DNA from: a virus
Virus record (IMG/VR): IMGVR_UViG_3300046005_002578
Coordinates: 1 to 26,953 of that record
Strand: one strand, 5' to 3'
DNA: 26,953 bases
The notes beneath the pieces were generated by a model, which made no database searches, was not told the DNA's origin, and worked only from the letters and a program-made list of their open reading frames with translations. The position numbers and the translations under genes were made by a program. Of the stretch, positions 1 through 26,923 are shown in pieces. The first letter of the stretch is position 1, and each line of letters begins with the position of its first letter.

Positions 1-291
1 GCGATAGATATTGTCGAGGCGGTGTTTTGGCAACCCTAAATCTTGAACAGCAACGCCATCTTGCCATTGCTCAAACGACTGACCATCGGCTAATTTTGCG
101 AACAGTGAATTGAGGACAGCTTGAAGCTGGTCAAGGCTGGCAACGCCTGCAATTGAAAATGCCAACTGCCGCTGAATGCCTTGCAACTCGCCGTAGTATT
201 TTGCAGGCAGCACGATTTCGCGTGCATCCATGGCAGCAATCGCTTCATCAAACGGGACATTAAAACCGATGGATACCGTTGTATCAGGCAT
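1..291 (-). CDS. Mu F-like phage head morphogenesis protein (partial)
   Basis: This is the N-terminal 97 codons of a gene that runs off the left edge. The frame is open from an ATG at 291 to base 1. The protein starts MPDTTVSIGF and contains the stretch LPAKYYGELQGIQRQLAFSI followed by AGVASLDQLQAVLNSL. This resembles the start of Mu gp30/SPP1 gp7-type minor head proteins, which sit next to the portal and help assemble the procapsid. It begins 8 bases inside the end of the portal gene, as expected for coupled late genes in the Mu order terminase-portal-F. The family call rests on this partial match and on gene order; the diagnostic C-terminal domain is not in the window. Confidence 0.7.
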   Translation of the reverse strand, partial: MPDTTVSIGFNVPFDEAIAAMDAREIVLPAKYYGELQGIQRQLAFSIAGVASLDQLQAVLNSLFAKLADGQSFEQWQDGVAVQDLGLPKHRLDNIYR

Positions 292-1801
292 TCACATAAC
301 CCAATACGTCAGCTGCAAACATCGCTCGTTCTAGCATCTGCCGAAATTGTGCGGTATCAGTATCGGCAAATAACACCGCTAATTTATCGGCTAAATCTTC
401 TGGCGATTTTGCAGTTTTAATGGCATTGAAAATTGCCCCTTCAGAAATCGGACTGCTCGAATTTGCCAGTGCGTTGTCTGCTAAATTTTCAATTTCTTGT
501 TGGGCTGAGGTAAATCTCGCGCCCATGGGCGCGTAAAAATTAAACGATTCCCTTCCGCCCATGGGCGGATGGTTTTCATCTTTTCTTGCGCCAATTGGCG
601 CAAAAACATTATCAGCCGCTGAAAATTTCTTTCCGCCAATTGGCGGATTGATGGTTTGATTTGGTAATTCGGCAGGGATTTCAAAATCACCTTCTTCATA
701 GTCGTACACCCGCAGCAAATAATCGGGCGTGAGTTTAAGTACGCCAGCTTGCACCAGCTTGGAATCACGGTCAGCACGTTCAGTTTCCAATCCCGTGTCA
801 TCTTCCATCACAAAAGTCGGTGGTTCACCTGTAAAACCGTTCAGCGTGTGCAACGCCGTGACCAGTGTTTGCACCGTTTTTGTCACTAAACGCATATCCG
901 CCTTGCGCCTGTCATCGAGTACCGCTTGATGCACTTTTGCAGCGGCAAAACTACCTGTTTTGCCAACATCGGACGTTAACGTTTGCCCAAGAATGACCTT
1001 TTGAATCCGCTTTAAAATGGCATTTTCAAATTGCTCAAAGGTCGCGCCGTTTTGCTGCACGCTCATAAACTCCGCTTCCCAACCAGCGGGGAGCGCAAGC
1101 GTAGCGTTTTGCACAGCGGCATTTAAAACAACGGATAAATGGTCAACCGATGGTGTGCCGTCCGCCATGGGCATATCGGGTGCAGTGCCTTTTAAAAAGG
1201 GAATCCCAGCGCGTTCAAGATTCTTTGCCCAGAATTTCCAGCCGTTGACGCGAAACAACCACGCCCAGTACAAACGCGACAACACCGCTTCGCCGTAGGG
1301 CTGACGGTAGGTTTGATTACGCACGGTGAGCAGAAATTTGTAATCGGTATCAACGGCTGTTCCCATTGGGTCGAGCATCGAGCGATAAATCAAATCACCG
1401 TTACTTTTTGGCTCGAACCATTCAAACGGTTTTTCGCTAATCTCCGCGAGAGTAATTTTGCCGTCGGTGTTTTTATAAATTATTTCCTGCACGCTGTAGC
1501 CATAAAGTACGGCGTTAAATGCACCGCGCAGTACCGTGGCAATTACGCGCTCGATCTCATTCCACAAGAAATTGTTTTGCCGAACTAATCCTGATTCCAA
1601 CCGCCATGGTGTTGCAATCAACGCTTCACGACGGGTTTCAATCGCGGCGTAAATTTCGTCATCGGATTCCAAAGTGCGAAGTTCTTTGCGATGAATACCG
1701 AGCTTTTTTAAGGTCTCATCGGTATCTGCCATTTGCAGCAGATTGTTTAGCAAATAATCAATTGCCTGCTCGTTGTAGAGGGCTTTCGGTGCGGTCGCCA
1801 T
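284..1801 (-). CDS. Mu gp29-like portal protein (DUF935 family)
   Basis: This 505-residue protein would form the dodecameric portal ring through which DNA enters the head. Typical DUF935 segments are visible: FEWFEPKSNGDLIYRSM, LPAGWEAEFM, and the conserved stretch around ILGQTLTSDVGKTGSFAAAK near residue 300. The ATG at 1801 overlaps the terminase stop as TGATG, so I prefer it to the TTG one codon upstream. An unusual C-terminal segment, roughly residues 385-428, is built from four perfect DNA palindromes that encode PPIGG, APIGA, PPMGG and APMGA in turn. This part is probably a lineage-specific insertion in a tail region of the protein that tolerates change. Confidence 0.9.
   Translation of the reverse strand: MATAPKALYNEQAIDYLLNNLLQMADTDETLKKLGIHRKELRTLESDDEIYAAIETRREALIATPWRLESGLVRQNNFLWNEIERVIATVLRGAFNAVLYGYSVQEIIYKNTDGKITLAEISEKPFEWFEPKSNGDLIYRSMLDPMGTAVDTDYKFLLTVRNQTYRQPYGEAVLSRLYWAWLFRVNGWKFWAKNLERAGIPFLKGTAPDMPMADGTPSVDHLSVVLNAAVQNATLALPAGWEAEFMSVQQNGATFEQFENAILKRIQKVILGQTLTSDVGKTGSFAAAKVHQAVLDDRRKADMRLVTKTVQTLVTALHTLNGFTGEPPTFVMEDDTGLETERADRDSKLVQAGVLKLTPDYLLRVYDYEEGDFEIPAELPNQTINPPIGGKKFSAADNVFAPIGARKDENHPPMGGRESFNFYAPMGARFTSAQQEIENLADNALANSSSPISEGAIFNAIKTAKSPEDLADKLAVLFADTDTAQFRQMLERAMFAADVLGYVNA
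518..647. repeat. Cluster of four in-frame perfect palindromes in the portal gene
   Basis: Four perfect palindromes lie at 518-533 (core GCGCCCATGGGCGC), 554-569 (CCGCCCATGGGCGG), 586-603 (TTGCGCCAATTGGCGCAA) and 632-647 (CCGCCAATTGGCGG). Their centres are 36, 33 and 45 bases apart, all multiples of three, so each is read in the same frame. The set covers all four combinations of two cores (AATT or CATG) and two flanks (GCG..CGC or CCG..CGG), with both arms always matching. The sequences between them are unrelated. Confidence 0.95.
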
Positions 1802-3066
1802 CAATAAATCCTCGCACCAGAGGTAATCGGGGCAGATTGCGCGATACCTGTTGCGCCATAAAACGCAATCGCCAGTGACATTACGGTGTCATCGTGTTGA
1901 CCATGCGGTGCGCCGTAACGAATCATGCCGCTGGGCAAGCGTTCTTGGTCAAAACACATGAGTTCGTTAATCAACGGCGAATAATCGGGAATCGAAATCG
2001 TGCCTTGCTCAAACGCAATGGCGAGTTTTTCAATGATTTCAGCTTTACTGGCGTTGGTGGTTTGAAACGCACGGACAGGCAGACCACGGCGTTTGGCTTG
2101 TTCGAGAAACGGCAACCCTGTGTTGTTGGATTCAATCAGAATTGGTGCGCCTTTGAAGCGTTGCGACATGGCGACCAGCCGCTCCAATTGCATGACGTAT
2201 TCGACTTGGTTAAATCTATCGACGGCGACAACTTTACGGTCACGCGCATCAACCACGGTGATGACGGTAAAATCCTCAACCCGCGCTAAATCCACGCCGA
2301 TAACGTAAGCTCTAGCATCGGCATTTTTTTGTTCTTTTCGCCACCAATCGTCGCCATTGATTTCATAAGTGCAAGCGCGAATGTTACGAAACACGCCACC
2401 TGCATCATCTAAGAATTGCGCGAGGTATTCTTGTTGGAAAGTACGTTCAGGGAGATTGCGACGGGCTTCTTCAATTTCGTCTGGATGGATAAACGGATTA
2501 CACGCGGTGGGCATTTGCCAGCTTGCCCAGTTGGGTTCGTGGTTAACACCACGTTGATAACAGTCATAAAAATAATTTCGCCCCTTGGGTGTGGATAAAA
2601 ACCACGCATCGCCACCAAAATCAGTCAGCGTCGGGCGAATGGCGTTCTCCCATGCAGGTTGTAGCCGTTTAGCAATGCCTGCTTCGTCAATAATCACGCG
2701 GCTATATTTACGACCACGCCCTGCATCTTCATCTTCGAGTGACCAGAAATCGACTGCACCGCCGCCGATAATTTCGAGGCGTTTGGATTGCTCACTTTTG
2801 CAGGTAATCACGGGCTTTAAGCGGTCTTTGGATTCACGCCACGCGGCATCAAGCACTTTATACGTCGGGGCAAACCAACCGACGGGATAGCCTTGCAACG
2901 CGGCAGTCGCTAAATCACTGCACGCACTCGCACCCAACGCCAACATAATGCCGAGCGCGGTTTTACCACTCCGCCGCCCCAAGCAGACCACGTTATAACG
3001 GGCGCGACCTTGCCACACCTTTTGTTGCGCGATGTGCAACGCAGGCAATTTAAGTCTTTTTGTCAT
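1801..3066 (-). CDS. Phage terminase large subunit (Mu gp28-like)
   Basis: This 421-residue packaging motor pumps DNA into the head and cuts it. Counting from the ATG at 3066, an N-terminal ATPase shows a Walker A-like GRRSGKT near residues 30-36 and a Walker B VIIDE near 124-128. LSTPKGRNYFY follows near 158. The C-terminal RNase H-like nuclease shows VIGVDLARVEDFTVI (Asp about 259), LIESNN (Glu about 312) and HDDTVMSLA (Asp about 392). The ATG at 3066 has a GGGA ribosome site six bases upstream; a TTG one codon earlier is less likely. The stop overlaps the portal start. Unusually, the small terminase is about 2 kb upstream, separated by five small genes. Confidence 0.93.
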   Translation of the reverse strand: MTKRLKLPALHIAQQKVWQGRARYNVVCLGRRSGKTALGIMLALGASACSDLATAALQGYPVGWFAPTYKVLDAAWRESKDRLKPVITCKSEQSKRLEIIGGGAVDFWSLEDEDAGRGRKYSRVIIDEAGIAKRLQPAWENAIRPTLTDFGGDAWFLSTPKGRNYFYDCYQRGVNHEPNWASWQMPTACNPFIHPDEIEEARRNLPERTFQQEYLAQFLDDAGGVFRNIRACTYEINGDDWWRKEQKNADARAYVIGVDLARVEDFTVITVVDARDRKVVAVDRFNQVEYVMQLERLVAMSQRFKGAPILIESNNTGLPFLEQAKRRGLPVRAFQTTNASKAEIIEKLAIAFEQGTISIPDYSPLINELMCFDQERLPSGMIRYGAPHGQHDDTVMSLAIAFYGATGIAQSAPITSGARIY

Positions 3067-3149: not shown

Positions 3150-3857
3150 TTATGGCAACAACGCTGCGCCGTCTAAGAAGTGGGTGTATTGAATCGTGAC
3201 GGTTTTATCCACCAACGTACCGATTTCAGTCGCTAAATAGCCGTCTAAGGCATCAATGAAAATCGCGCCTTCACCATTGGTTACGCGCAAGTCATAAGTC
3301 ACGCCTTCTGCGGTGACGTGCTGCACCGTGCCTTGGTTTAAAACGACCATGACGGGATGTGCTAAGTTCAATGGCTCGACATCCGAAGTCACTAAAATGG
3401 TTTCGATGGTTGTGCCTGTGACCACGCCGCCGTTGAGCAACGCGCTAACTTGGTCTTTGTTGGCAGTGACGGTTGCCGCTAAAGTAGCAACAGACGCATT
3501 GACTGACGCAATCGCGGCGTTAATTGCATCTGCAACGCTGGCGTTTGGATTGACCGCGATGTAATCGGCGATTTCTTTTAATGTGTTTAACGCTTCAGGT
3601 GCAGCACCGATTAAATCGGCGATTTCTTTACGGAATGAACCGACGGTGGTGGAATCACCGTTGATGGTCGCAACCAATGTTGAAACTGGTGAAACCGCCG
3701 CGTTGATGGCATTGGTACGCGCCGTGACTTCGGCGTTAATCGCTTCGGCTAATGCCGCAGTGCTACCTGTGCCAACTGCTGCCGCTTGGGCTTGTAACGC
3801 GGCTAACGCTTCTTTTAAACCTGCAATCGAACTTTGACTGTATTGAATTTGTGCCAT
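3150..3857 (-). CDS. Fibre-like phage structural protein
   Basis: This 235-residue protein begins MAQIQYSQSS, then has a low-complexity, Ala-rich helical region. It contains the stretch GSFRKEIADLIGAAPEALNT followed by LKEIADYI, which is common in phage tail-fibre and appendage proteins. The C-terminal 80 residues are beta-rich (VEPLNLAHPVMVV, GEGAIFIDALDGY) and could be a virion attachment or trimer domain. GGAG lies eight bases before the ATG. Its first 21 residues are identical to those of the next small gene upstream. A structural role is inferred from composition and place; the exact role is unknown. Confidence 0.6.
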   Translation of the reverse strand: MAQIQYSQSSIAGLKEALAALQAQAAAVGTGSTAALAEAINAEVTARTNAINAAVSPVSTLVATINGDSTTVGSFRKEIADLIGAAPEALNTLKEIADYIAVNPNASVADAINAAIASVNASVATLAATVTANKDQVSALLNGGVVTGTTIETILVTSDVEPLNLAHPVMVVLNQGTVQHVTAEGVTYDLRVTNGEGAIFIDALDGYLATEIGTLVDKTVTIQYTHFLDGAALLP

Positions 3858-3925: not shown

Positions 3926-4123
3926 TTAATCTTGCGGGGCATCAAAGCGAATGCGCCATTTGGTTTTAGTTTTTTTCTTTGATGAACGCTTGGTTTGTAC
4001 AAAAACGATTTCTTTAGGCAATTTAAAATTTTCACCTTGCTGGTTTTTTATCTGCTCATCGAGCGCGGCAAGGGCTTCCTTCAAACCTGCAATCGAACTC
4101 TGGCTATATTGAATTTGTGCCAT
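3926..4123 (-). CDS. Small protein sharing the N-terminus of the fibre-like gene
   Basis: This 65-residue protein has the same first 21 residues as the 235-residue protein downstream (MAQIQYSQSS onward). It then diverges completely into a Lys-rich tail (TKRSSKKKTKTKWRIRF). The first 59 bases of the two genes differ at only 8 positions. AAAGG lies before the ATG, and the start overlaps the end of the previous gene. It looks like a duplicated 5' end joined to a different or eroded 3' part. It could be a separate small virion protein or the remnant of an older fibre gene. I do not recognise a family. Confidence 0.55.
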   Translation of the reverse strand: MAQIQYSQSSIAGLKEALAALDEQIKNQQGENFKLPKEIVFVQTKRSSKKKTKTKWRIRFDAPQD

Positions 4124-9917: not shown

Positions 9918-10027
9918 GTTAAATCTCTCCCCAAGCAATTGCCGAAAGTTCGTTTTTTTCGACTAACATAATAATTCATCAAATTCACATGTACATTTTT
10001 CCATTAAACTCACTTCGTGTACCAGCA

Positions 10028-10388: not shown

Positions 10389-10494
10389 TTAAAAATAAAT
10401 GGCATAAGAGCGTCGAGAAGAAATCAGGTACAACTCCGTGAGGAAATCTATAAGAATAACGCCTCAGAAATGCTACAATCACAACCACTGGACG

Positions 10495-11616
10495 ATGTCA
10501 ACGCACATGTTATTGCGTAAACCATTTAAATCACCACAAAATATACAAAAAATGAATTTACTTAATATCTTTGAAGCGTTGAAATCACGGTCTTTTTCAT
10601 TTCGTCAACTTCAATCAGAATTAAAACACCATCAAATGCCATCAGCTTTGGGTTGGGATTTATTACAGAGTCGGTATTCTAATAATTCACTTTTTGAAGA
10701 TGATGAATTGGCAAATTGGAACAATTCGTTGCAAATGATATATGCAAATCATCTTTGGTATGGTGCAAAAGCTGTTGTCATATTCACCTTAGGGCAGAAA
10801 AGTTGTTTAGATTTAATCGATGAGTTTTCTAAATTAAATTTAGAGCAATCCCCTTATAAATCTAGCTATCCATTGCCATTGACAGAATGTGAGCTCAAGG
10901 AAATAACAGCAAAGCATTTTGCTAGTTTTTTTTCAAAAGATGACGAAGCGCGTTTAATTTTTTGTAAAAAACGTGCGGTAAAAATTACCGAATTAATTAC
11001 ATACGATACTTTAGAACCTGCTTTCGTGAAACATTTAGGAGAAGTTGAGGAAATAATTGTTGTTCGTAATAAACTGATTCAATCATTCGACAGCATTGTT
11101 ATTCGTCCAGATAAAAACAGATTGGAAATCCATATTGATATACCAAATCAATTAACTACAGAAGAAATATTGGAGTCAGTCAGAATTCTTAAACACACTA
11201 TTGATAAAACATTGCGTGAATTATCAAGTGATGAAGAATTGAGCAGCCCGATAAACTTTTTTCCCAGCATTGCAAAATTGTACAAGGAAGATGATGGCTG
11301 TGTCCTTCAACTGAAACATGCTACAGGGACGGCTTCGATTAAGGATGAAAAAATGAGAGGGAATAAATATTTGGATTTAAGAGAGGAATTATTTCACGAA
11401 AAAGGAATTGAGGCAGTTGGAGGGGATACCAATTGTTACTCAATAACAAAATGTTGGGAAACAGATACAGGACATTATCCACAAGTTACAATTTCTGGAA
11501 GTTTATCTCATACGGTATCTTCAAATCCGACCATCGAATATGTTGTTATTGATAATAGTGGATGTGAAAAGAATTTTGAAATGGTCATTACTAAATTACT
11601 CGATACTGCAAAGTGA
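10495..11616 (+). CDS. Unrecognised protein, first gene of a three-gene cargo operon
   Basis: This protein of about 373 residues matches no family I recognise. The N-terminal part is helical (MNLLNIFEALKSRSFSFRQL, LGWDLLQSRYSNNSLFEDDE). A central segment reads VRNKLIQSFDSIVIRPDKNR and then LEIHIDIPNQLTTEEILESV, which looks like an alpha/beta domain. The C-terminus is beta-rich (HYPQVTISGSLSHTVSSNPT). No nuclease, ATPase or membrane motif is visible. The start is uncertain: ATG at 10495 is chosen because a TACAAT box lies at 10474; GTG at 10438 and ATG at 10552 are possible. Its stop overlaps the GTG of the next gene as GTGA. It is AT-rich, like the 707-residue cargo gene. Confidence 0.6.
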   Translation: MSTHMLLRKPFKSPQNIQKMNLLNIFEALKSRSFSFRQLQSELKHHQMPSALGWDLLQSRYSNNSLFEDDELANWNNSLQMIYANHLWYGAKAVVIFTLGQKSCLDLIDEFSKLNLEQSPYKSSYPLPLTECELKEITAKHFASFFSKDDEARLIFCKKRAVKITELITYDTLEPAFVKHLGEVEEIIVVRNKLIQSFDSIVIRPDKNRLEIHIDIPNQLTTEEILESVRILKHTIDKTLRELSSDEELSSPINFFPSIAKLYKEDDGCVLQLKHATGTASIKDEKMRGNKYLDLREELFHEKGIEAVGGDTNCYSITKCWETDTGHYPQVTISGSLSHTVSSNPTIEYVVIDNSGCEKNFEMVITKLLDTAK

Positions 11617-12026
11617 ATAAACAAAAAATCATTCAATATATGGAAGAAGACCTCAGTAAATTACCTGATTTGCTAGAAGTTTGTCGTGCCATTTTTGATT
11701 ATATTTGTTCACAACCAAAACAAAACCTGAGGCATATTACATTTGGAGCATTGAGTAGAGCGGCAAACTTAACCCAGACACATGAAATTATTCCAGCGGT
11801 GCAATACCTTACAGGAGAACGACTACACTTATTATCAACAAAATTTGAATTCATAGATGGTGATTTTGTTGTAGATATTCCTATTGAGGATGTAACCGAA
11901 GCAAAAGAAAAAAATGTTTTTTTCCATCCTGATAAAGGCGAGGTGATGAGTGATTTTGAATCAAAACTGTTTATGTATTTCACGTTAAGCCCTGATGGCG
12001 AAAAACTACTTAGCGGACAAATTTGA
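11613..12026 (+). CDS. Small unrecognised protein, second gene of the cargo operon
   Basis: This 137-residue protein is coupled to its upstream neighbour by a GTGA overlap. The N-terminal 80 residues (LPDLLEVCRAIFDYICSQ, LRHITFGALSRAANLTQTHE, IIPAVQYLTGERLHLLSTKF) look like a winged helix-turn-helix: three helices and then a hairpin FIDGDFVVDI. The C-terminus is acidic. It could be an adapter or a regulator for the flanking proteins. No family is recognised. The fold guess is from the pattern of helices alone. Confidence 0.6.
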   Translation: MNKQKIIQYMEEDLSKLPDLLEVCRAIFDYICSQPKQNLRHITFGALSRAANLTQTHEIIPAVQYLTGERLHLLSTKFEFIDGDFVVDIPIEDVTEAKEKNVFFHPDKGEVMSDFESKLFMYFTLSPDGEKLLSGQI

Positions 12027-12027
12027 A

Positions 12028-12663
12028 ATGCAATTAGAGTCACTTTCATTGGCTGATTTTAAAAATTTACGCGAACTTCGTCCAGATTGTGCCAGATTTG
12101 CAGATTTCATACTTGTGCAAACTTATGAAGAATTTGTAAATATTCTCTACCAAAATATTGATGAGTGCATCAGATTGATGGAGGGTGGTCGTAACCTTAG
12201 AAAAAATGATGGTGAAGATCGTTTAACTGAGGATTTTAGAATGTTTTTGCGTGCTAAAGGCTATCAAGCAAGGCATGACGAAAATATAAATGGGCATAGT
12301 GACTTAGTTGTTAGTCAGAAAGATAAGCCCTATTTATGGTTGGGCGAAGCAAAAATTCATGATGGTGGTTATACTTATTTGCGGCAAGGTTTTGATCAAT
12401 TAACTACACGTTACTCGCTTGGAACTGAGGACGCTTTCCACGGTGGATTATTGATTTACATTCGTCAACCCAAAGCCGCAAAAATAATTGCAACATGGAA
12501 AAAACGACTTGCAGCATTTAAATTAGATGATTATTCGGAATCAGAATGTGCAATGAAACCAAATTTGGCTTTTTTCTCTACGCATTGCCATGAGAGTTCT
12601 GGGCTACCTTTTACTGTTCGACACATGGCTATAGTGTTACACCACAATCCCCAAGATAAATGA
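12028..12663 (+). CDS. Predicted PD-(D/E)XK nuclease, third gene of the cargo operon
   Basis: This protein of about 211 residues carries a clear restriction-nuclease core: LTEDFRMFLRAKGYQARHDE, then INGHSDLVVSQKDKPYLWLG, then EAKIHDGG. Counted from the ATG at 12028 this gives Glu68, Asp92, Glu107 and Lys109, that is D-x14-E-x-K, with a following Gln in LRQGFDQLTTRYS that is often kept in these nucleases. An N-terminal helical part precedes it. The ATG at 12028 is two bases after the previous stop codon; an in-frame ATG at 11995 would overlap the previous gene by 32 bases. It is the likely effector of the operon, cutting DNA when the other two components allow. Target and trigger are unknown. 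Confidence 0.7.
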   Translation: MQLESLSLADFKNLRELRPDCARFADFILVQTYEEFVNILYQNIDECIRLMEGGRNLRKNDGEDRLTEDFRMFLRAKGYQARHDENINGHSDLVVSQKDKPYLWLGEAKIHDGGYTYLRQGFDQLTTRYSLGTEDAFHGGLLIYIRQPKAAKIIATWKKRLAAFKLDDYSESECAMKPNLAFFSTHCHESSGLPFTVRHMAIVLHHNPQDK

Positions 12664-12672
12664 AACCTTCTG

Positions 12673-15600
12673 TTATTTATTAGTCAACATCAACAAATCA
12701 AACACCACCTTAGCAAAACCCGCCGATTTTGCTGGATCAGATAACAGCTGCATCATTTGATTTTGATGTGCTTCGCCACTTTCCATAATTGCGTCGTCAA
12801 TGGCTTTCGGGAAATTGCCGAGCATGGCTTGTTCGGGTGTATTTTCTGTAATTTGCTTCATTACCAGCGCATTTTCGCTGATTTTATCTCGAATCGTGTA
12901 AGCGTAATTCACCATGTCTTTATCGGTTAAATGGTCGGTGATAAACAGCTCATTCAAACGTTCAATAATCTGTGACAAAAACGCTTCTTCGATATTTTTT
13001 GCCGTTGCCGAGCCTAAATCACTTGCAGGCTCAAGCGGCTGTGGCGCGTCTATTTGCAGTTTCAAATCTTGTTGACGAATAATCGACACACGGTAATGAC
13101 TGAGCGCAACGTCGCTTAAATCAATGTCATCTTCTTCCATAAAGGTTTCGCGCAACATCGGGCGCAAATGACGAGCAAACAAACTGAGCTTTTCTAAATC
13201 CTTGTCGTCGTAATCAACGATTTGTGACATGAATTCATAAAAGCGAACAAACGTGCCTAAATCCTTTTTGAAAATTTCGAGTTTGTCTTTTTCTTTTTTG
13301 CATTCCTTGAAACTGTTTTCAGCGTTGGTAATCAGCACCGCATCAGCGGTTTTTTTGGTACGCTCAAACATATCTTTTGCTTGTTTAAACGCTTCAACGG
13401 CAGATTGATAACGCTTTTGCCAACGCTCTACAGCGGGTTTGCAAATGTTAGCGATTGCCGCATTGCTTTTGCTTTTCACAAAAAATGCCGCGCAAAATTG
13501 TTCGACTTCGTGCCATGTAAAAATCCCCGCTGCGCGTAATTTTTCAGCCAAATCAAAAATCAAATTCGGGTCAGATACGTCGGCGAGTTCGGCTGTTTGA
13601 TAATATGGTTGAAACGATTCGAGGATGTCTTGCGGCTGGTTGAAAAAATCTAAAACGAACGTCGTTTCTTTGCTTAAATAGGTACGATTCAAGCGCGACA
13701 AGGTTTGCACGCATTCCACACCGCCGAGTTTTTTATCAACGTACATCGCGCAAAGTTTGGGCTGGTCGAATCCCGTTTGAAATTTGTTCGCCACAATCAT
13801 CACTTGGTAATCGTCCGAATCGAACGCTTTACGCAAATCGCGTCCTTTTAAATTCGGATTCATGTTGCTTTCGGTGAATTTTTCACCAATCAAACCTTCT
13901 GAATTTGGGTCTTTGTCGGTGAATTCGACTTCGCCTGAAAATGCCACCATCGCATGAATGTTTTGATAGCCTTTTTCGATGATGTATTTGTCAAAGCCGT
14001 GTTTGTAACGTACCGCTTCTTTGCGTGAACTGGTGACAACCATCGCTTTGGCTTGTCCGCCGAGTAAGCCCATCACGTTATCCTTGAAATGTTCAACGAT
14101 GATTTGGACTTTTTGCGAAATGTTGTAATCGTGTAGACGCACCCATTGATTGAGTTTTACTTTTGCGCGTTTGCTTTCCACTTCTTGGTCGGCTTCCTGA
14201 ACTTTTAACGCCAAGTTGTAAGCGACTTTGTAATTGGTGTAATTTTTAAGCACATCAAGAATAAAACCTTCTTCGATGGCTTGGCGCATACTGTAGACAT
14301 GAAACGCGGCAGGTAAATTCGTTTTCGATGCTGGCTCATTTGGATTGGGTAATCTGCCGAATAATTCGAGTGTTTTTGCTTTGGGCGTGGCGGTGAAGGC
14401 AAAATAACTCACATTCGGTGAAGCGCGACGCGAAGCAATCGTGGCATCTAAAATATCTTCGGCGGTCAAGTCTTCATCGTCAATTTGCGAATCGGTCATC
14501 AAGACTTCTTTTAATTGTCGCGCCGTCGAGCCTGTTTGTGATGAATGCGCCTCGTCAGCAATAATCGCGTAGCAGCGTTCTTTTAAACTCACGCTATTTT
14601 CGATGGCGCGTAATACAAACGGGAAGGTTTGAATCGTCACGATAATAATCGGCTGAGAATTTTCAAGTGCGGCAGCTAATTTTTCAGATTTTGAACCATC
14701 GCCTTCTTTGTTGTTGATGCGTCCGACAACCCCATCAACGTGTTCAAATTGATAAATCGTGTCTTGTAATTGGTCATCTAAAACCGTGCGGTCTGTGACG
14801 ATAATCACCGAGTGAAATTGCTTGTTGCCGCCCTCGTTGTAAAGTGACGAAAGTTGATGCGCCGTCCATGCAATTGAATTGGATTTGCCAGAACCTGCGC
14901 TGTGTTGAATTAAGTATTTTTGCCCTGTACCTTCGATTTTTGCGGCATGAAGTAATTTTTTCACCACGTCCCATTGATGATAACGCGGAAAAATTAAGGC
15001 TTCTTTTTTATATCGCCGACCTTCCCAATTTTCTTTTTCTTCGATTTGCAAATGAACAAAACGCGCCAAAATGTTCAGCAAATTTTCAGGCAATAACACT
15101 TCATTCCAAAGATAAGCCGTTGCGTATTGATTCGCATCGTCGGGCGAATCGTTACCCGCGCCACCATCTGCTGTGCCTTTGTTGAACGGCAGAAAATAAG
15201 TGTCAGCACCTTCAAGGCGTGTGGTCATATAAACTTCGTACTGACTCACCGCAAAATGCACCAACGCGCCACGCTTGAAAGTTAGCAACGGTTCAGGTTT
15301 TTTGGTGGTTGGGTCAGTTGGCAAGCGCGTGGTTTTATATTGCTTAATCGCGTTGTGTACCGCTTGTTTAAATTCGGATTTGAGTTCGAGCGTCGCAATC
15401 GGCAAGCCATTTACAAATAACACTAAATCAATTCGCGCCAAATTTCCCCACGCGCTATAAACCAATTCAGGCACAACGCGGCAACGGTTTTTTTCATAAC
15501 GCGCCAACGTGTCAGGGTTTAAATCGTGTTCGGGTTTGAATTGGCATAACCGAAAGCGCGTGTTTCGGTCTTTGATTTCGTGACGTAAAACACCGAGCGT

Positions 15601-15879
15601 GCCGAAAGTTCGCATTTCTTTGTTGGCGGCGTTTGGGTCGGCTTTGCTGAGTTGATTTGCAACACGTTCTAAAAATTTTTCGTCGGCATTATTCGGGTAC
15701 AACGCACAAAATTTTTGCCATTGTTGCGGCTGGGTTTCTTGCACAAAACCGAGTAAATCTTCCGAATACAATGCTAATTCACGGTTATAGTTTTCAGATT
15801 TTCCGAGCAACCAACCGTTAGCGAGTAATTGCGAAATGATGTCATTTTGGAACGGTAATTCGTTGGCTTTATTCGTCAT
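12673..15879 (-). CDS. hsdR: Type I restriction enzyme, R subunit
   Basis: This 1068-residue protein is the DNA translocase and nuclease of a type I system. The N-terminal nuclease has ARIDLVLFV and ATLELKSEF (Asp151, Glu165, Lys167). The SF2 helicase follows with HSAGSGKSNS (Walker A about 329-333), VTDRTVLDDQ, ADEAH (442-445), FAFTATPK, and late motifs QTGFDQPKLCAMYVDKK and QTLSRLNRT. The C-terminal region is helical and would bind the methylase core. The start at 15879 gives an ATGA overlap with hsdS; a longer start at 15891 lacks this. All motifs look intact, so it should be active. Its end lies ten bases from the convergent three-gene operon. Confidence 0.95.
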   Translation of the reverse strand: MTNKANELPFQNDIISQLLANGWLLGKSENYNRELALYSEDLLGFVQETQPQQWQKFCALYPNNADEKFLERVANQLSKADPNAANKEMRTFGTLGVLRHEIKDRNTRFRLCQFKPEHDLNPDTLARYEKNRCRVVPELVYSAWGNLARIDLVLFVNGLPIATLELKSEFKQAVHNAIKQYKTTRLPTDPTTKKPEPLLTFKRGALVHFAVSQYEVYMTTRLEGADTYFLPFNKGTADGGAGNDSPDDANQYATAYLWNEVLLPENLLNILARFVHLQIEEKENWEGRRYKKEALIFPRYHQWDVVKKLLHAAKIEGTGQKYLIQHSAGSGKSNSIAWTAHQLSSLYNEGGNKQFHSVIIVTDRTVLDDQLQDTIYQFEHVDGVVGRINNKEGDGSKSEKLAAALENSQPIIIVTIQTFPFVLRAIENSVSLKERCYAIIADEAHSSQTGSTARQLKEVLMTDSQIDDEDLTAEDILDATIASRRASPNVSYFAFTATPKAKTLELFGRLPNPNEPASKTNLPAAFHVYSMRQAIEEGFILDVLKNYTNYKVAYNLALKVQEADQEVESKRAKVKLNQWVRLHDYNISQKVQIIVEHFKDNVMGLLGGQAKAMVVTSSRKEAVRYKHGFDKYIIEKGYQNIHAMVAFSGEVEFTDKDPNSEGLIGEKFTESNMNPNLKGRDLRKAFDSDDYQVMIVANKFQTGFDQPKLCAMYVDKKLGGVECVQTLSRLNRTYLSKETTFVLDFFNQPQDILESFQPYYQTAELADVSDPNLIFDLAEKLRAAGIFTWHEVEQFCAAFFVKSKSNAAIANICKPAVERWQKRYQSAVEAFKQAKDMFERTKKTADAVLITNAENSFKECKKEKDKLEIFKKDLGTFVRFYEFMSQIVDYDDKDLEKLSLFARHLRPMLRETFMEEDDIDLSDVALSHYRVSIIRQQDLKLQIDAPQPLEPASDLGSATAKNIEEAFLSQIIERLNELFITDHLTDKDMVNYAYTIRDKISENALVMKQITENTPEQAMLGNFPKAIDDAIMESGEAHQNQMMQLLSDPAKSAGFAKVVFDLLMLTNK

Positions 15880-16583
15880 AAAACGTCCCATTCCCGCACA
15901 TCAATTTTCCCTGTCACTGCCGCAGAAATTAGGGCATCACGACGTTCTTGTAACAATGAAATCATGCACTGAGTATCTTTGATTTGACCCAGTGAAACAC
16001 CACCTGTCATTTTTTGAATTAAAGCGTGAATTTTAAGAGTTTCGTTATCAAGGAAATCAACAATTTTTTGTTGTTCTTCCAATGTAGGGACTAATAATGG
16101 TAAACGTCGCATATCATCAAACTTCATTGATTGACGTAAACCGCCACCCATTCCATAAAAAACTTTTGTTGTATCGTATGAGTGTAATAATCGATACAAG
16201 AAGCGGTCATTTAAGTGATTATTTCTCGCAACTAATTTCAAATATGCCGAAGTGATGATGCCGTTTTCTTTGGCGTGACCAACTCTCAAACTTCTTTTAT
16301 CATTTTGTAAATCTGTCAGTCTTAGAATTAAATCACCAGAATTTACTAATTGATAAGTGTTAAACGATTCAGGTAAAAGCCCTGCATTTTCTTCCACATC
16401 CCTTTTTACTATATTGCCATAACTCAGGGACAAAACATTGGTCTCAAGCCCATTTGAGTTTTTTATTGATTCTGTATAAACCACCGCAAAAAGAGGCTTT
16501 ATATCCCAATGAGTAGGTATGTCTCCTACCCACTCAACATCAGAATTTTTATATGCGGGGTAGGTTTGGTATTTGCCAGACAT
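15876..16583 (-). CDS. hsdS: Type I restriction specificity subunit, half size
   Basis: This 235-residue S subunit chooses the DNA target of the HsdM/HsdR complex. It opens with YPAYKNSDVEWVGDIPTHWD, the usual start of the first target-recognition domain. After one such domain comes LPLLVPTLEEQQKIVDFLDN and a helical spacer, and it ends LLQERRDALISAAVTGKIDV, the usual end of a full protein. Normal HsdS has two recognition domains and about 400 residues, so this one has a single domain between normal ends. Half S subunits in other systems can act as pairs on symmetric sites. The spacer has an odd segment (MTGGVSLGQIKDTQ). The ATG overlaps the toxin stop as TGATG, with AGAGG upstream. Confidence 0.88.
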   Translation of the reverse strand: MSGKYQTYPAYKNSDVEWVGDIPTHWDIKPLFAVVYTESIKNSNGLETNVLSLSYGNIVKRDVEENAGLLPESFNTYQLVNSGDLILRLTDLQNDKRSLRVGHAKENGIITSAYLKLVARNNHLNDRFLYRLLHSYDTTKVFYGMGGGLRQSMKFDDMRRLPLLVPTLEEQQKIVDFLDNETLKIHALIQKMTGGVSLGQIKDTQCMISLLQERRDALISAAVTGKIDVREWDVL

Positions 16584-16609
16584 CACGAATGCACCTCTTG
16601 TAATAATTT
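16583..16609 (-). repeat. Copy of the hsdM tail at the end of the toxin gene
   Basis: The last eight codons before the tacT stop encode KLLQEVHS, the same eight residues as the end of HsdM (17375-17401). The two copies differ at six of 24 bases, all silent. This copy contains AGAGG at a fitting distance from the hsdS start, so it doubles as the hsdS ribosome-binding site. Confidence 0.7.
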
Positions 16610-17080
16610 TTTAAGTGACAGAATTAAGGTCATTGGCTGAGTTGGTGAAACAACAAAGCCGTGATGTTCATAAAATGCCTTCGCTTCAACCGATAACGCA
16701 TGAACCAACAAACCGCGAATGCCTACAATTTCAGCGGCTTTTGCGGTGCGAATCACAGCATCTTGAAGTAACGCCACACCAATTCCTTTACCTTGATAGG
16801 TTTTATCAATCGCCAAGCGTCCTAAAATAGCGACAGGAACAGGGTCGGGCATATTGCGTCGAATGGAAGCAGGCGTACTTTTTAATTCCAACGCACCTGA
16901 AGCCAAACAATAATAACCCACCACTTTCTGCTCATCGGTGACAACGTAAGTGCGTGACGCGCCGTTGATTTGATTGGCATAAGCGCGTTTTTTCAGCCAA
17001 TCATCAAGACTATCAACGCCACAAACAAAATCATCAAGTTGATGTTGCGCTGTTAGCAAAGTGGGTGAAGATAACATCAT
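16583..17080 (-). CDS. tacT: GNAT acetyltransferase toxin, TacT family
   Basis: This 165-residue GNAT enzyme resembles TacT/AtaT-type toxins, which acetylate the amino group of charged tRNAs and stop translation. The acetyl-CoA site is seen as ILGRLAIDKTYQGKGIGVAL (QGKGIG about 96-101). The catalytic Tyr is in EAKAFYEHHGF (Tyr137). The ATG at 17080 overlaps the antitoxin stop as ATGA; a GTG at 17089 is less likely. The protein ends KLLQEVHS, a tail foreign to the family and identical to that of HsdM. The pair lies inside a restriction operon, where it would be co-transcribed with hsdM and hsdS. Confidence 0.9.
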   Translation of the reverse strand: MMLSSPTLLTAQHQLDDFVCGVDSLDDWLKKRAYANQINGASRTYVVTDEQKVVGYYCLASGALELKSTPASIRRNMPDPVPVAILGRLAIDKTYQGKGIGVALLQDAVIRTAKAAEIVGIRGLLVHALSVEAKAFYEHHGFVVSPTQPMTLILSLKKLLQEVHS

Positions 17081-17364
17081 TCGTTCCACGGTTTGCGAGC
17101 TGCCATCAATCGTTCAAATCCTTCACCGCTCGGTGGCTCATCAAGAACATTCAGAAAATGGTTGTAGGTTTTTTGGTCAACGCGCACCAGTGTTTGGTCA
17201 AGCAACGATTCTTCTGCGGCTCTACGAGCGGCTTCAATCATAAAATCTGCTAGCGTTTTACCTTGTGCTTTGGCGGCTTTATCAATCAAGGTGCGAACAT
17301 CATTGCGAACCCGTAAATTGAGCGCACGACTTGAAATAGGCTGTGTGGTTTGGTGGTAAGGCAT
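17077..17364 (-). CDS. tacA: TacA-type antitoxin (DUF1778, ribbon-helix-helix)
   Basis: This 95-residue antitoxin has the DUF1778 pattern: a ribbon-helix-helix at the N-terminus (SSRALNLRVRNDVRTLIDKA, then AKAQGKTLADFMIEAARRAA) and a C-terminal toxin-wrapping tail (DQKTYNHFLNVLDEPPSGEG, ending ARKPWNE). It neutralises the acetyltransferase encoded next and usually represses its own promoter as a complex. AGAGGA lies just before the ATG, only ten bases after the hsdM stop. There is no room for a separate promoter unless it is inside hsdM. Confidence 0.92.
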   Translation of the reverse strand: MPYHQTTQPISSRALNLRVRNDVRTLIDKAAKAQGKTLADFMIEAARRAAEESLLDQTLVRVDQKTYNHFLNVLDEPPSGEGFERLMAARKPWNE

Positions 17365-17374
17365 AAAAATTCCT

Positions 17375-17401
17375 CTAGGAATGAACTTCTTGCAACAGTT
17401 T
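17375..17401 (-). repeat. Original hsdM tail, partner of the copy in tacT
   Basis: The final codons of hsdM encode KLLQEVHS. The match to the toxin tail downstream is exact at protein level and is not expected between a methylase and an acetyltransferase. Confidence 0.7.
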
Positions 17402-19657
17402 CATAATTTCTGCGCTAACGGCATCTAAATCGGCATCAATTTCGACTAAATCACGCGGCGGCTGATATTGGTAAAAATGGCGATTAAATGGAATTTCATA
17501 ACCCACAATGCCGATTTCGCCGTCTTTGTCATCGCGTTTGCTGGCATCAATCCAAGCGTCGGGAACGTGCGGCAACACTTCTTTTTTGAAATACGCTTCG
17601 TTGATGTCATTCACGCTTAAAGCAGGATTTAGCGCGACGTTTTCATTATCGCGTAATTCGGAATCGGCTTGATATTCGATAATTTCGCCGCCGACTTCAA
17701 ATAAACCATAAAGCGGATTGGCTTTGCCTTTGTGAATTTTCTTGATGACTTTTTCGGCGGCTGGATTGCGCCAACTTACGGCATCTTTGAGTTGCTTTTT
17801 CTCTTTCGTATCAAGTGTGACGGCGGCTTTTTTACAGGCAATTTTTAGCGCATCTTCAAAACCGTTCATGTCATCGAATTGCGCTAAACCGATAACGCCT
17901 TGCAGTTTTTGGGCTTTTTCTAATAATGCTTTTTGGTCTTGCCAAAGTTTGGGTTCTAAAACGTCTTTGATTTGTTTTTCTTTGAAATCGGGGAAATGAA
18001 TTTTGAGATGTTTGCGGATTTCGTCATGGTCGCTTAAATCGTCGCCAAACTGGGCATAAATCGATTTCATTGGCGCGTTCAACGCACCTGCCGCAAAACG
18101 CAATTCTTCAATGCGTTCGTCGCTAAACTGAAACGATTCACGCAATGGGCGTTCAATAGTGATGCGACGATAACCGAACTCGTAACTGTTGAAGATTTTG
18201 CTGGCGAAGGTTTTAGCTGCCTCGGTTTTTGGATTTGCCGATTGGCGACCACGATTGCTTTTTTGTTCGGCGGGTTTATCAAGTTCACGCGCTTCGATTT
18301 CGACAAACTCACCAAACGCACGAGTGACAGTTGCAATGTCGCCTTCGTCCATTTCGTTACGTTTTGAGCCGAGCGACTTTCGCATTTTGCCGCATAAATT
18401 TACCGCGTTAATCAGTTGCACTTTGCCTTTACGTTCACGCGCTTTTTTATTTGATAAAATCCAAACATACGTTGAAATGCCTGTGTTGTAGAACATATCG
18501 GTTGGTAACGCGACAATCGCTTCGAGCAAATCTGCTTCTAAAATATAACGACGGATTTCAGATTCACCCGACCCCGCGCCACCTGTGAATAAAGGTGAGC
18601 CGTTGAGAATAATCCCAATGCGTGCGCCACCGTCTGCCGTGTCGCGTAATTTGCTGATGAGATGTAACAAAAATAACAACGAACCGTCTGAAACTCGCGG
18701 TAATCCTGCACCAAAACGCCCGTCAAACCCTTTTTGGGTATGTTCGTCTTTGATGTCAGTTTCAATCTTTTTCCAGTCCACACCAAACGGCGGATTCGAC
18801 AACATATAATCGAATTTTTGTGAATAAAGCTGGTCATTGGAAAGCGTGTTGCCGAGTTTGATATTTTGAACTTCTTGCCCTTTGATGAGCATATCGGCTT
18901 TACAAATCGCGTAACTTTCAGGATTGAGTTCTTGCCCGAATGCTCGAATCACCGCATTGGGATTGAGTTCATGGACATACTCCATGCCTGAGGATAAAAA
19001 ACCGCCTGTGCCTGCTGTCGGGTCATAAATCGTGCGAATAATGCCGTCTTTTGTGAGTGCATCATCGTCTTCCATAAACACCAGTGAAGTCGTTAAGCGC
19101 ACAATGTCACGCGGCGTAAAATGTTCTCCAGCAGTTTCATTTGAACTTTCAGCAAAACGGCGTATCAATTCTTCAAATACCAAGCCCATTTCATAATTGG
19201 AAATCGCTTTCGGACTTAAATCGGCTTCGCGTACTTTTTGCACCAGTTTATAAAGCAAATTCGCGTCACTCAGTTGCCCGATAAATTCTAAAAATTTGAA
19301 ATGTTCAAAAATTTCACGGGCATCTTTGGAAAAAGCGAGGATGTACGATTCGAGATTGGCAGCAATGCCTGATTCGCCTAATTTCGACAAATCCATTTTT
19401 GAGGTATTGAAAAACGACAATCCGCCTGTGGCTTTGAGCAAAAACTTTTCTTGTGCTTCTTCAGGCAGATTCATGGCTTGCAATCTGTCAAATTCTGCCA
19501 GTACCGCTTCTTTTCTATCTGCCAAAACGCCTTCAAGTCGGCGTAGTAATGTGAAGGGTAAGATAATGCGCCCGTATTGACTTTGTTTGAAATCACCGCG
19601 TAATAAATCGGCAAGTGACCAAATGAAGGCGGCTTGGTTGTTGGTGTTTTGGCTCAT
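17375..19657 (-). CDS. hsdM: Type I restriction-modification DNA methyltransferase, M subunit
   Basis: This 760-residue adenine methyltransferase pairs with HsdS to modify the target and protect self DNA. The N-terminal HsdM helical domain starts [30 protein letters not shown] (about 179-188), the SAM motif DPTAGTGGF (212-220) and the catalytic NPPF (288-291) follow in gamma-class order. It is longer than the 529-residue E. coli form because of an extended C-terminal region, as in many environmental homologues. It starts the operon hsdM-tacA-tacT-hsdS-hsdR on the minus strand. The promoter should lie in the 155-base gap before it. No obvious ribosome-binding site is seen upstream of the ATG. 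Confidence 0.95.
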
Positions 19658-22801: not shown

Positions 22802-23827
22802 ATGAGCTTAAATCAATTTCCAACTCAAACCACGCCATCAAATTTAAGTCCGATGGCACAAACTGACCAAAACCGTGCGGTGGCGGAAGTCCAAGCGGCG
22901 ATGATGATTGCCAGCATGAACCCGCGTAATCAACGTGGTGCAATGGACAGAATTTTAAATGCCTGCACGCGGCAATCGCTCGCCGAAAGTGCGGTTTATC
23001 AATTCGCTAGAGGTGGCGCAAACGTCTCAGGCGCATCGATTCGACTTGCCGAAGCCATTGCTCAACAGTGGGGCAACATTCAATTTGGAATCCGAGAACT
23101 CGAACAGCGCACGGGCGAAAGCACGGTTCAAGCCTTCGCATGGGATGTTGAAACCAATACCCGCCGCGAAGTGACGTTTCATGTCGCCCATGAATTGCAC
23201 ACGCGCAAAGGCGTGAAAAAACTCACCGACCCGCGTGATATTTACGAGATGGTGGCAAACCAAGGCGCACGGCGGTTGCGCGGCTGCATCTTGGCAATTA
23301 TTCCCAGCGATGTCACCGAAGCAGCGGTAGCCCAATGTGAACGCACCTTAGTTACCACCGCCGACGTTACGCCCGAAGCAATTAAACGCTTAGTGGAAGC
23401 CTTTGAAGCCTTCGGTGTAAGCAAAGAACAAATTGAACTGCGAATTCAACGCAGGCTTGATGCCGTTCAGCCTGCACAGGTGGCGAATTTACGAAAAATC
23501 TACGCCAGTATTCGTGATGGCATGAGTACCGCCGACGAGTGGTTTGAAAAGCCTGCCGCCAAATCGCGCAGCGTGGAGAGTTTGATTGAAGTCGAGCCGC
23601 CAAAAGAACCTGAACTGGTGGCAGAACAGTTGCCCATGAGCAACGCTGAACTGCCACCTGACCCTTATGGCGAATGGATTGGCAAAATTGAAACCTGCCA
23701 AACAGTCGGCGACATTGCCAAATTGCTCAACGAAATGCCTGCCAATGTGAAAACCGATTTGAAAGAGTTGGTCACTAAACGGCAGGACGACATCAAAGCA
23801 CAGGCTCAACAAGAAGCCGCGCAATAA
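22802..23827 (+). CDS. Putative single-strand annealing protein of the phage recombination module
   Basis: This 341-residue protein belongs to a conserved phage family with the segments NRAVAEVQAAMMIASMNPRN, ILNACTRQSLAESAVYQFAR, SIRLAEAIAQQWGNIQFGIR and LTDPRDIYEMVANQGARRLR. In other phages the family sits next to RecE- or lambda-type exonucleases, so an annealing role is likely. I do not see a clear RecT, Erf or Rad52 signature by eye. The C-terminal third is variable and charged and ends QAQQEAAQ. GGAG lies eight bases before the ATG. The family match is secure; the function is inferred from neighbours. Confidence 0.65.
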   Translation: MSLNQFPTQTTPSNLSPMAQTDQNRAVAEVQAAMMIASMNPRNQRGAMDRILNACTRQSLAESAVYQFARGGANVSGASIRLAEAIAQQWGNIQFGIRELEQRTGESTVQAFAWDVETNTRREVTFHVAHELHTRKGVKKLTDPRDIYEMVANQGARRLRGCILAIIPSDVTEAAVAQCERTLVTTADVTPEAIKRLVEAFEAFGVSKEQIELRIQRRLDAVQPAQVANLRKIYASIRDGMSTADEWFEKPAAKSRSVESLIEVEPPKEPELVAEQLPMSNAELPPDPYGEWIGKIETCQTVGDIAKLLNEMPANVKTDLKELVTKRQDDIKAQAQQEAAQ

Positions 23828-23878: not shown

Positions 23879-24277
23879 ATGATGAGTAAAAATTTATCAA
23901 ATACCGAGAGCAAGGCTCTCAAATTGATTCAAAAAGAGGGCATTACACGTTATCTGTCGCGCCAAGCCAATGTTGAGCGACGCAACAAAATCCGTGAGTT
24001 TGATAGTTATGTTGGCAGCGATGGCAAAGGTTCAACATCACCCGCAGGCATGGCAATTTCAATCGCTCGTGCCATCAAAGATTCGTTTGGTGTGGCAGTA
24101 GCAGAAATGAATGAGTGGCAATTAAACCAACTCATCATGCTCGAAAACAGCGCGATTCAAATTATCGAAAACGGTATGAAAGCTAATCTGCCGCGTGTCG
24201 AAATTCGCCAGCGCATTTTCGATGTTATCAAGCTCAACAAACAGCAATACGACATTATCAACGGAGATTCAAAATGA
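23879..24277 (+). CDS. Hypothetical early phage protein
   Basis: This 132-residue, largely helical protein begins MMSKNLSNTESKALKLIQKE and contains STSPAGMAISIARAIKDSFG. No catalytic motif is seen and I do not recognise a family. GGAG precedes two consecutive ATG codons (23879 and 23882), so the start is sure to within one residue. The stop overlaps the next start as ATGA. It is likely an accessory part of the recombination or replication module. Confidence 0.6.
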   Translation: MMSKNLSNTESKALKLIQKEGITRYLSRQANVERRNKIREFDSYVGSDGKGSTSPAGMAISIARAIKDSFGVAVAEMNEWQLNQLIMLENSAIQIIENGMKANLPRVEIRQRIFDVIKLNKQQYDIINGDSK

Positions 24278-25362
24278 ACGAATTACAACAATTACCCGAT
24301 ATGACGCTCGAAGAAGCACAAGTTAAACACGCCGAACTTAAAGCCCTTGAAAGTGTCATGCGTTCAAGTTTGCTTGAAATGCGTGACCGCAAAGGTTGGA
24401 AAGTTTTAGGTTATTCGAGTTGGGCTGAATACGGTGAAACAGAATGGGGATACGGTCGCCAATACTTAGACCGACTAGCAACCGCTTCTCGCATTCAACA
24501 AATTGTTGCGCCAATTGGCGCAAGCGATATTCCTGAAAGCAATTTACGTCCGCTTGGAAAAGTTCCCGATGCAGATAAATCCGCAGTGTACGAAGAAGCC
24601 GTTGAACGCGCCTTAGCCGAAGGTAAAAAACTCGGTGCAAAAATGATGGAAGATGTCGTAGCTGAATATCTTGCAAAAAATCAAACCATGCAACAACGAC
24701 TCGATTGGCTTGAAATCAATAAAGAAGCCATTACTCAGCAAAACGACCAGCTTCGCAATGATTTAGCGTTCAAGGTAAATGAAAAGGTTGATGAAAAATT
24801 AGCTATCGAACGCGCCACCTTGATTCTTGAAAATTCCAATGCGTTACAGAACGCACAAAAATTGATTGATGACGCGCAAGACACCATCGAACGCCTGCAA
24901 CAAGAATCCGCTGACCAGCTTGAACGTTTCAAAAAAGAAAAAGACAAAGCCGTCAGAGACGGAATTAGTCTTGAATTAAGCAAACGTGAAACTGAACTGC
25001 GTCAGCTGGATTACCAAGTGGAATCGTTGCAAAAACAAGCCGCCGAATTACGAAATGCCCGTGATTTGCTCGACACAGAAAATGGCATCATCAAACAGCA
25101 CCAAGAGAGCATCAAAGATGTTGGAGGGGCAATTCAGGACATCAAAGCCGCGTTATATCTAGCAAACGAGAGTGGCAGCATTCCCATCGAACTGATGAAC
25201 ACTTGGCATTCGTTACACGCTGCCTTCACCGAATTAGCCAAAGAATTTAATGCGTTTTGTATTCGTAGCGCGAATGGCATGGTGATTGATGGCAACGCGC
25301 TTGCGTCGAATTCCGCCGATGATTTTGATGACCTCTCTTTTATCGCTTGGGGAAACGCATGA
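24274..25362 (+). CDS. Coiled-coil protein with N-terminal DNA-binding-like region
   Basis: This 362-residue protein has an N-terminal region (RKGWKVLGYSSWAEYGETEW, then GYGRQYLDRLATASRIQQIV and NLRPLGKV). It resembles helix-turn-helix domains found in plasmid and phage proteins related to replication control. From about residue 135 to 290 it is one long coiled coil rich in Glu, Gln, Lys and Leu. A short mixed C-terminal domain follows. Residues near 80 read VAPIGASD, encoded by an 18-bp palindrome identical to one in the portal gene. GGAG lies seven bases before the ATG. It might organise DNA or cover single strands; no family is certain. Confidence 0.6.
   Translation: MNELQQLPDMTLEEAQVKHAELKALESVMRSSLLEMRDRKGWKVLGYSSWAEYGETEWGYGRQYLDRLATASRIQQIVAPIGASDIPESNLRPLGKVPDADKSAVYEEAVERALAEGKKLGAKMMEDVVAEYLAKNQTMQQRLDWLEINKEAITQQNDQLRNDLAFKVNEKVDEKLAIERATLILENSNALQNAQKLIDDAQDTIERLQQESADQLERFKKEKDKAVRDGISLELSKRETELRQLDYQVESLQKQAAELRNARDLLDTENGIIKQHQESIKDVGGAIQDIKAALYLANESGSIPIELMNTWHSLHAAFTELAKEFNAFCIRSANGMVIDGNALASNSADDFDDLSFIAWGNA
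24506..24523. repeat. 18-bp palindrome identical to one in the portal gene
   Basis: TTGCGCCAATTGGCGCAA is identical to the palindrome at 586-603 and is read in the same frame (GCG CCA ATT GGC GCA, encoding APIGA) although the gene lies on the opposite strand. The surroundings of the two copies are not related. Confidence 0.9.
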
Positions 25363-26846: not shown

Positions 26847-26891
26847 TGGTCGGAACGATAGGATTTGAACCTACGACCCCTTGTCCCCCAG
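26847..26891. other. Predicted prophage attachment site (right end) in the tRNA 3' half
   Basis: Integrases next to tRNA genes usually recombine within the 3' half of the tRNA, from the anticodon loop to the CCA. The tRNA here is intact and oriented so that this half touches the phage. The duplicate core should lie at the left prophage end, beyond the window, so the exact limits cannot be set. Confidence 0.5.
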
Positions 26892-26923
26892 ACAAGTGCG
26901 CTACCAAGCTGCGCTACGCTCCG
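26847..26923 (-). tRNA. tRNA-Pro (GGG anticodon)
   Basis: This complete 77-base tRNA has an encoded CCA end. The acceptor arms CGGAGCG and CGTTCCG pair with one G-T wobble. The anticodon stem CTTGT/ACAAG closes the loop CTGGGGG, so the anticodon is GGG. The T arm has GTTCAAATC. It reads Pro CCC codons. Its 3' end faces the integrase, as in tRNA-targeted prophages where the attachment core restores the tRNA 3' part. Confidence 0.95.

Follow-up and report, generated by a model that had tools for sequence, protein, structure and literature searches.

The window, by which we mean the whole stretch of viral DNA analysed (26,953 nucleotides, IMG/VR record IMGVR_UViG_3300046005_002578), carries an integrase gene adjoining a tRNA-Pro (GGG) at 26847-26923, the sole match in an Rfam scan. 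The tRNA is the likely attachment site, and its position beside the integrase gene makes a prophage likely. A megablast search of the window for the host gave no match. Within the prophage, 12673-19657 encodes a Type I restriction-modification system (HsdR, a half-length 236-aa HsdS and HsdM), and between the Type I genes lies a GNAT-type toxin and antitoxin-like pair; a Shewanella xiamenensis plasmid carries an HsdR with 78.6% identity to this one. The product of 7794-9938, 714 aa long, weakly matches a NERD-type nuclease, with unknown genes adjoining at 10438-12663, and this region is possibly defence cargo. A 60-bp direct repeat (3798-3857 and 4064-4123, 87% identical) lies at the starts of two neighbouring genes or remnants. 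The genes and palindromic sites treated here are:

284..1804, minus strand: Mu gp29-like portal protein gene (Pfam Portal_Mu, 1.2e-67)
518..533, minus strand: portal site 4, CGCGCCCATGGGCGCG, encoding Y-APMGA; perfect palindrome in the linker
554..569, minus strand: portal site 3, TCCGCCCATGGGCGGA, encoding H-PPMGG; perfect palindrome in the linker
586..603, minus strand: portal site 2, TTGCGCCAATTGGCGCAA, encoding F-APIGA-R; same 18-mer as at 24506-24523
632..647, minus strand: portal site 1, TCCGCCAATTGGCGGA, encoding N-PPIGG; perfect palindrome in the linker
22802..23827, plus strand: RecT-like single-strand annealing protein gene, bearing a one-mismatch palindrome
23629..23644, plus strand: GTTGCCCATGAGCAAC, encoding QLPMSN in the RecT-like C-terminal linker; one mismatch
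24274..25362, plus strand: coiled-coil protein gene (weak phrog_464 match only, 2e-6)
24506..24523, plus strand: coiled-coil site, TTGCGCCAATTGGCGCAA, encoding V-APIGA-S; perfect, with other perfect palindromes here in orthologues

The initial annotation had pointed to an identical 18-bp palindrome in unrelated genes on opposite strands, and TTGCGCCAATTGGCGCAA is indeed present as an exact 18-mer at both 586-603 and 24506-24523. Its codon phase is the same in the portal (minus) and coiled-coil (plus) genes, both long ORFs. The word is its own reverse complement and so gives one peptide from both strands, (F)APIGA in the portal protein and (V)APIGA in the coiled-coil protein, as had been proposed. 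A third place, 631-648, resembles TTGCGCCAATTGGCGCAA with 3 mismatches. Dinucleotide shuffles yielded on average 0.09 matches with ≤3 mismatches, and not one shuffle in 100 reached three, which upholds the view that chance identity is unlikely.

Exactly five perfect palindromes of at least 14 bp are present in the window, where about 1.65 would be expected from 4^-7, and all five share the form S-CGCC-MATK-GGCG-S. Four lie in the portal C-terminal linker, inside a 130-bp stretch of the gene, and one in a loop of the coiled-coil protein; the initial annotation saw two of these copies and overlooked three in the portal linker (518, 554 and 632). The RecT-like site at 23629-23644 is a sixth member with one mismatch. 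The class has a core C-[AATT or CATG]-G, variable but perfectly paired arms and a peptide X-P-[I/M]-G-X'. Three arm types occur in the window genome (TTGCGCC, TCCGCC and CGCGCC), each exactly symmetric. Judging by alignments, the four portal copies probably stem from duplication of a pair in which the P type precedes the A type. None of the five is followed 3' by a T run, so that the GC stem plus U run of an intrinsic terminator is absent.

Palindromic sites among relatives of the phage

Protein similarity was used to collect relatives of the portal and coiled-coil genes. Alignments show a hypervariable portal linker, with one to four palindromes in the nearest relatives; the outgroups L038, L041 and L062 have none in this linker. 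The centre of site 4 is CATG in the window and AATT in the 97%-identical relative L030, while site 1 has a CATG centre in L030 and reads TACGCCCATGGGCGTA in L037. Site 3 is 12 nt shorter in L031. Single mismatches occur at sites 1 and 3 of L032, as at the RecT-like site of the window; a relative's RecT-like site is the perfect GTTGCCAATTGGCAAC, encoding QLPIGN.

In the coiled-coil protein the palindrome encodes residues 79-83, within a low-pLDDT loop (77-84) between two predicted helices, in a structure prediction of modest quality (pLDDT 71, pTM 0.39). A fold search with the N-terminal model gave no significant match, and a search for named phage or plasmid homologues of the protein found none. 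Phage orthologues (~50-93% identity) show six arm sets at this site, namely TTGCGCCAATTGGCGCAA (APIGA), TATGCCCATGGGCATA (MPMGI), TCCGCCAATTGGCGGA (PPIGG), TTTTGGGAACAATTGTTCCCAAAA (GTIVP), TTCCGCAATTGCGGAA (SAIAE) and TTCCGCCATGGCGGAA (SAMAE). P80 and G82 are invariant only in close orthologues; wider orthologues lose both and the palindrome stays (SAIAE, SAMAE, GTIVP and STMVE). As the peptide turns over while the palindrome persists, it is the palindrome and not the peptide that is kept here. Orthologues did not show an APIGA conserved through other codons; they retain a palindrome, with varying peptides.

Two simpler accounts of this site were discarded. The initial annotation had taken APIGA for an insert in the coiled-coil gene, but close orthologues have the same length and carry other palindromes there. 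A conserved PIG protein motif is likewise excluded by the wider orthologues that lack P and G yet are palindromic.

Protein profile search alone found seven distant chromosomal homologues of the coiled-coil protein. One is perfectly palindromic at the site (L285, TTCCACCATGGTGGAA) and two are nearly so, L286 with a 22-bp near-palindrome broken by a single T-G mismatch and L288 with seven-base arms around a GT centre. The other four (L287, L289, L290 and L291), mostly more distant, have no palindrome there. This recurring placement, which includes three of the seven distant homologues, suggests from comparison of sequences a conserved local function over random mobility.

Across the phage group there are 1-6 copies per contig, 14-24 bp in length. 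Within one phage several loci share identical arms, and the arms change from relative to relative. Thus TCCGCCAATTGGCGGA is found in the coiled-coil, portal and 161-aa genes of a single contig, and TTTGGGAACAATTGTTCCCAAA is common to the portal gene of L034-L036 and the coiled-coil gene of L233. When the 161-aa gene of L178, L149 and L186 is compared with that of L003 and L006, the DNA 3' of IYESNHPKYAGF is conserved and the 5' part is unrelated, which places this palindrome at a module junction.

Symmetry, codon phase and distribution

Covariation was measured in windows centred on each palindrome. In the sites found by homology 178 of 184 cells are paired. At positions 4-8 the count is 76 of 80, whereas 20,000 shuffles averaged 41 and never exceeded 63; the shuffle keeps the relatedness of the sites, so this comparison is not a formal probability. 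All four Watson-Crick pairs are represented at position 7, and in 22 of the 23 sites found by homology the bases at -2 and +2 change together as A:T or C:G. Where mismatches are present, A:C or G:G is as frequent as G:U.

Arm lengths in the phage group are bimodal for the CAATTG and CCATGG cores, with a background at 3-5 and a second class at 7-11; for eight other cores tested in the group this long-arm class was absent save for isolated cases. Of the group's 33 loop-4 hairpins with GC-rich stems, 22 have the loop AATT (15) or CATG (7). Within ORFs, nearly all CMATKG-centred palindromes of the group share one phase, with third codon positions paired with third positions, whereas the other hairpins of the group occur in all codon phases. 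Synonymous resampling under a fixed peptide gave an equally long palindrome at p 0.002-0.025 per site, so that codon choice is more palindromic than the peptide demands. Exchange of AATT and CATG at the centre, with flanks that are nearly identical, is seen at a terminator, a methylase linker, portal sites 1 and 4, and the RecT-like and coiled-coil sites. The terminator exchange is intergenic and distinguishes L200 from L148; an exchange of the centre also distinguishes L234 from L240.

In viral contigs TTGCGCCAATTGGCGCAA itself is almost confined to close relatives of this phage. Exact scans of these contigs for TCCGCC-centre-GGCGGA returned 74 stretches with AATT, 35 with CATG and 13 with the GATC control, and since the scans were baited with the palindrome they are informative for extension, phase and centre only. 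Half-arms of at least 10 were found in 20 of 63 distinct AATT contexts, 16 of 27 CATG contexts and 1 of 12 GATC contexts; the GATC-centred controls encode the same PPIGG and seldom extend. In other phages the in-frame palindromes reach 26 bp. The CCGCC-armed core lies in frame in linkers of ParB-like/MT-A70 proteins, ParB/N6-N4 methylases, a replication-type protein, an ERF protein and a polyvalent protein with an FtsK gamma domain. PPIGG as a conserved ParB-like motif was ruled out, as it is absent from nine named plasmid and phage homologues whose linkers are hypervariable.

Several related structures were seen in other contigs. In the Acidithiobacillus-type phages L200, L148, L159 and L229 a terminator-like TCCGCC-centre-GGCGGA hairpin with a T run precedes the tail sheath gene; the DNA is nearly the same apart from the hairpin centre, which is either AATT or CATG. 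A 38.7 kb contig (G621, comprising L251 and L252) has seven CGCCAATTGGCG-type sites, which fall in every codon phase as well as in non-coding DNA, and these are more like an iterated genome word than the one-phase sites of the window group. In G622 (L256-L258) the perfect palindromes measure 34, 36 and 42 bp; they appear to be intergenic, and all have CCAATTGG at the centre. A 108-bp perfect palindrome at the contig end of L152 (11999-12106) is probably an assembly chimera.

In 84,980 genomes (257 Gb), TTGCGCCAATTGGCGCAA was found in 19 scattered, unrelated species, one copy each and in several frames; 4^-18 × 257 Gb predicts about 4 chance occurrences. In a sample of 369 Gammaproteobacteria the 14-mer CCGCC-MATK-GGCGG did not rise above background, and none of the genomes had more than 2. 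Counts of the family word in these 369 genomes and 200 Burkholderiaceae (569 in all) gave no clear outlier, and a Hydromonas MAG had six matches, mostly asymmetric. With only scattered single copies and no genome in clear excess, the word is not known as one spread through a bacterial genome. The earlier suggestion of a small iterated element in the host genome therefore stands in part: the word is iterated in frame and its class occurs in many phages, but iteration across the host genome found no support in the sampled genomes.

Explanations for the retained symmetry

The words vary from phage to phage yet stay palindromic and in one frame. On these sequence comparisons, what is acted on appears to be the palindrome, as DNA or RNA, and not the encoded protein alone.

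Our preferred, tentative reading is that these very short coding palindromes form a dispersed family maintained by conversion; any function is putative. A change in one half of a palindrome would be copied onto the other half, or the entire word would be swapped for another copy, by hairpin-mediated template switching or short ectopic conversion. Palindromes would be tolerated where they encode a small flexible [AP]-P-[IM]-G-[AG] in a protein loop, and new copies may enter linkers by this route too, in the manner of Rickettsia palindromic elements and intragenic REPs. Consistent with conversion are the same-sequence copies in unrelated genes of one phage, the change of arms and centre in concert, the constant reading phase and the location of sites in loops and linkers. 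Relatives yielded no clean empty site bearing a target duplication, and the sole length difference, the 12 nt of L031, is a deletion or a partial insertion. Because conversion explains most of the observations, but no clean insertion was found and the position in the coiled-coil gene is conserved, we place it somewhat short of an even chance. A more specific statement, of a self-correcting coding palindrome defined by its symmetry, with a two-state core, arms and peptide turning over and copying between phage genes, is more doubtful.

Alternatively, the palindromes could be cis-acting sites for a dimeric DNA-binding protein of phage or plasmid type (an operator or a parS-like site), placed inside tolerant genes and with arms that diverge with specificity. 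Such sites would fit the sharing of arms among loci of one phage and their difference in relatives, as well as the retention of the coiled-coil-gene site in deep homologues with other arms. Many of the carriers handle DNA (ParB-like plus MT-A70, N6/N4 methylase, ERF, RecT-like and FtsK gamma domain), and a position limited to A or C per half-site suits protein contacts. However, one genome has several exactly symmetric arm types, the expected asymmetric half-site hybrids were not seen in the phage group at stems of at least 6, and the same core doubles as a terminator stem; we regard a binding site as unlikely.

A functional mRNA hairpin, acting in pausing at domain linkers, in processing or in stability and leaving the arms free as long as they pair, would explain the covariation of the arms. 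RNA folding gave z = -5.4 for the portal linker and z = -2.3 for the coiled-coil site, and the copies with T runs before the tail sheath gene of the Acidithiobacillus-type phages are terminator-like. Against this, a hairpin has no need for the covariation of the -2/+2 loop bases (22 of 23 sites), A:C or G:G mismatches are no rarer than G:U, and pairing leaves the sequences common to unrelated phages unexplained. The hairpin thus seems rather improbable as the general explanation.

Coincidence, in which P-[IM]-G turns in common codons are palindromic by themselves, draws on the P80 and G82 of close coiled-coil orthologues and on CCA-ATT-GG being an 8-bp palindrome, yet it is very improbable: peptide turnover at one homologous site contradicts both a protein motif and codon chance, orthologues without P and G are still palindromic, the observed arms are rare under synonymous resampling, and GATC-centred PPIGG controls are few (12 against 63 AATT and 27 CATG) and rarely extended.

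Relation to known palindromic elements

The nearest kinds to this putatively conversion-maintained family are Rickettsia palindromic elements, intragenic REPs and mitochondrial coding palindromes, and the window class fits best among the in-frame palindromic elements, as a variant. The first two each differ in a tested defining feature, the length for the Rickettsia elements and the terminal tag for the REPs.

Rickettsia and Wolbachia palindromic elements (RPE/WPE) are in-frame palindromic repeats in unrelated genes and solvent-exposed parts of proteins (PMC3767692); RPEs are 100-150 bp long and their repeat identity is lost over time (PMC6649704). The window class also lies in frame in unrelated ORFs (portal, coiled-coil, RecT-like and 161-aa genes) and, by prediction, in exposed parts (loop 77-84 and the hypervariable portal linker). 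Unlike RPEs, the phage palindromes are 14-26 bp, phage-borne and perfect despite sequence turnover. Intragenic REPs are GTAG/CGTC-tagged stem-loops of 20-40 bp, some of them in DNA replication or repair genes and in flexible linkers, and Xanthomonas recB genes have different REPs at one site (PMC3733652). In contrast, no GTAG or CGTC tag adjoins any window copy, the window genes scanned included neither a transposase nor a RAYT-type enzyme, and the dyad is perfect through the centre.

Nematomorpha mitochondria have perfect coding inverted repeats that are gained and lost, with template switching proposed as their upkeep; they reach 284 bp and the long ones favour other codon phases (PMC6649704). 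The window class shares the perfect inverted repeat in coding sequence and the gain and loss between relatives, with protein function presumed from intact, conserved ORFs, but it is shorter, with a single core and a single phase that pairs third codon positions. Cyanobacterial HIP1-type words have a fixed sequence at ~500-2500 per Mb, and their reported alternates exclude this core (PMC4390886). Both are short palindromes dispersed in coding sequence; HIP repeats one invariant word of 6-8 bp hundreds to thousands of times per Mb, whereas the arms of the window class vary and there are 1-6 copies per contig.

Short in-frame palindromes are easily missed because they resemble ordinary linkers. 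If palindromicity itself persists, they would offer a natural readout of palindrome repair and conversion in living genomes, with the steps visible under coding constraint. If a protein or RNA function maintains them, they would instead represent a regulatory site common to many phages and some chromosomal relatives.
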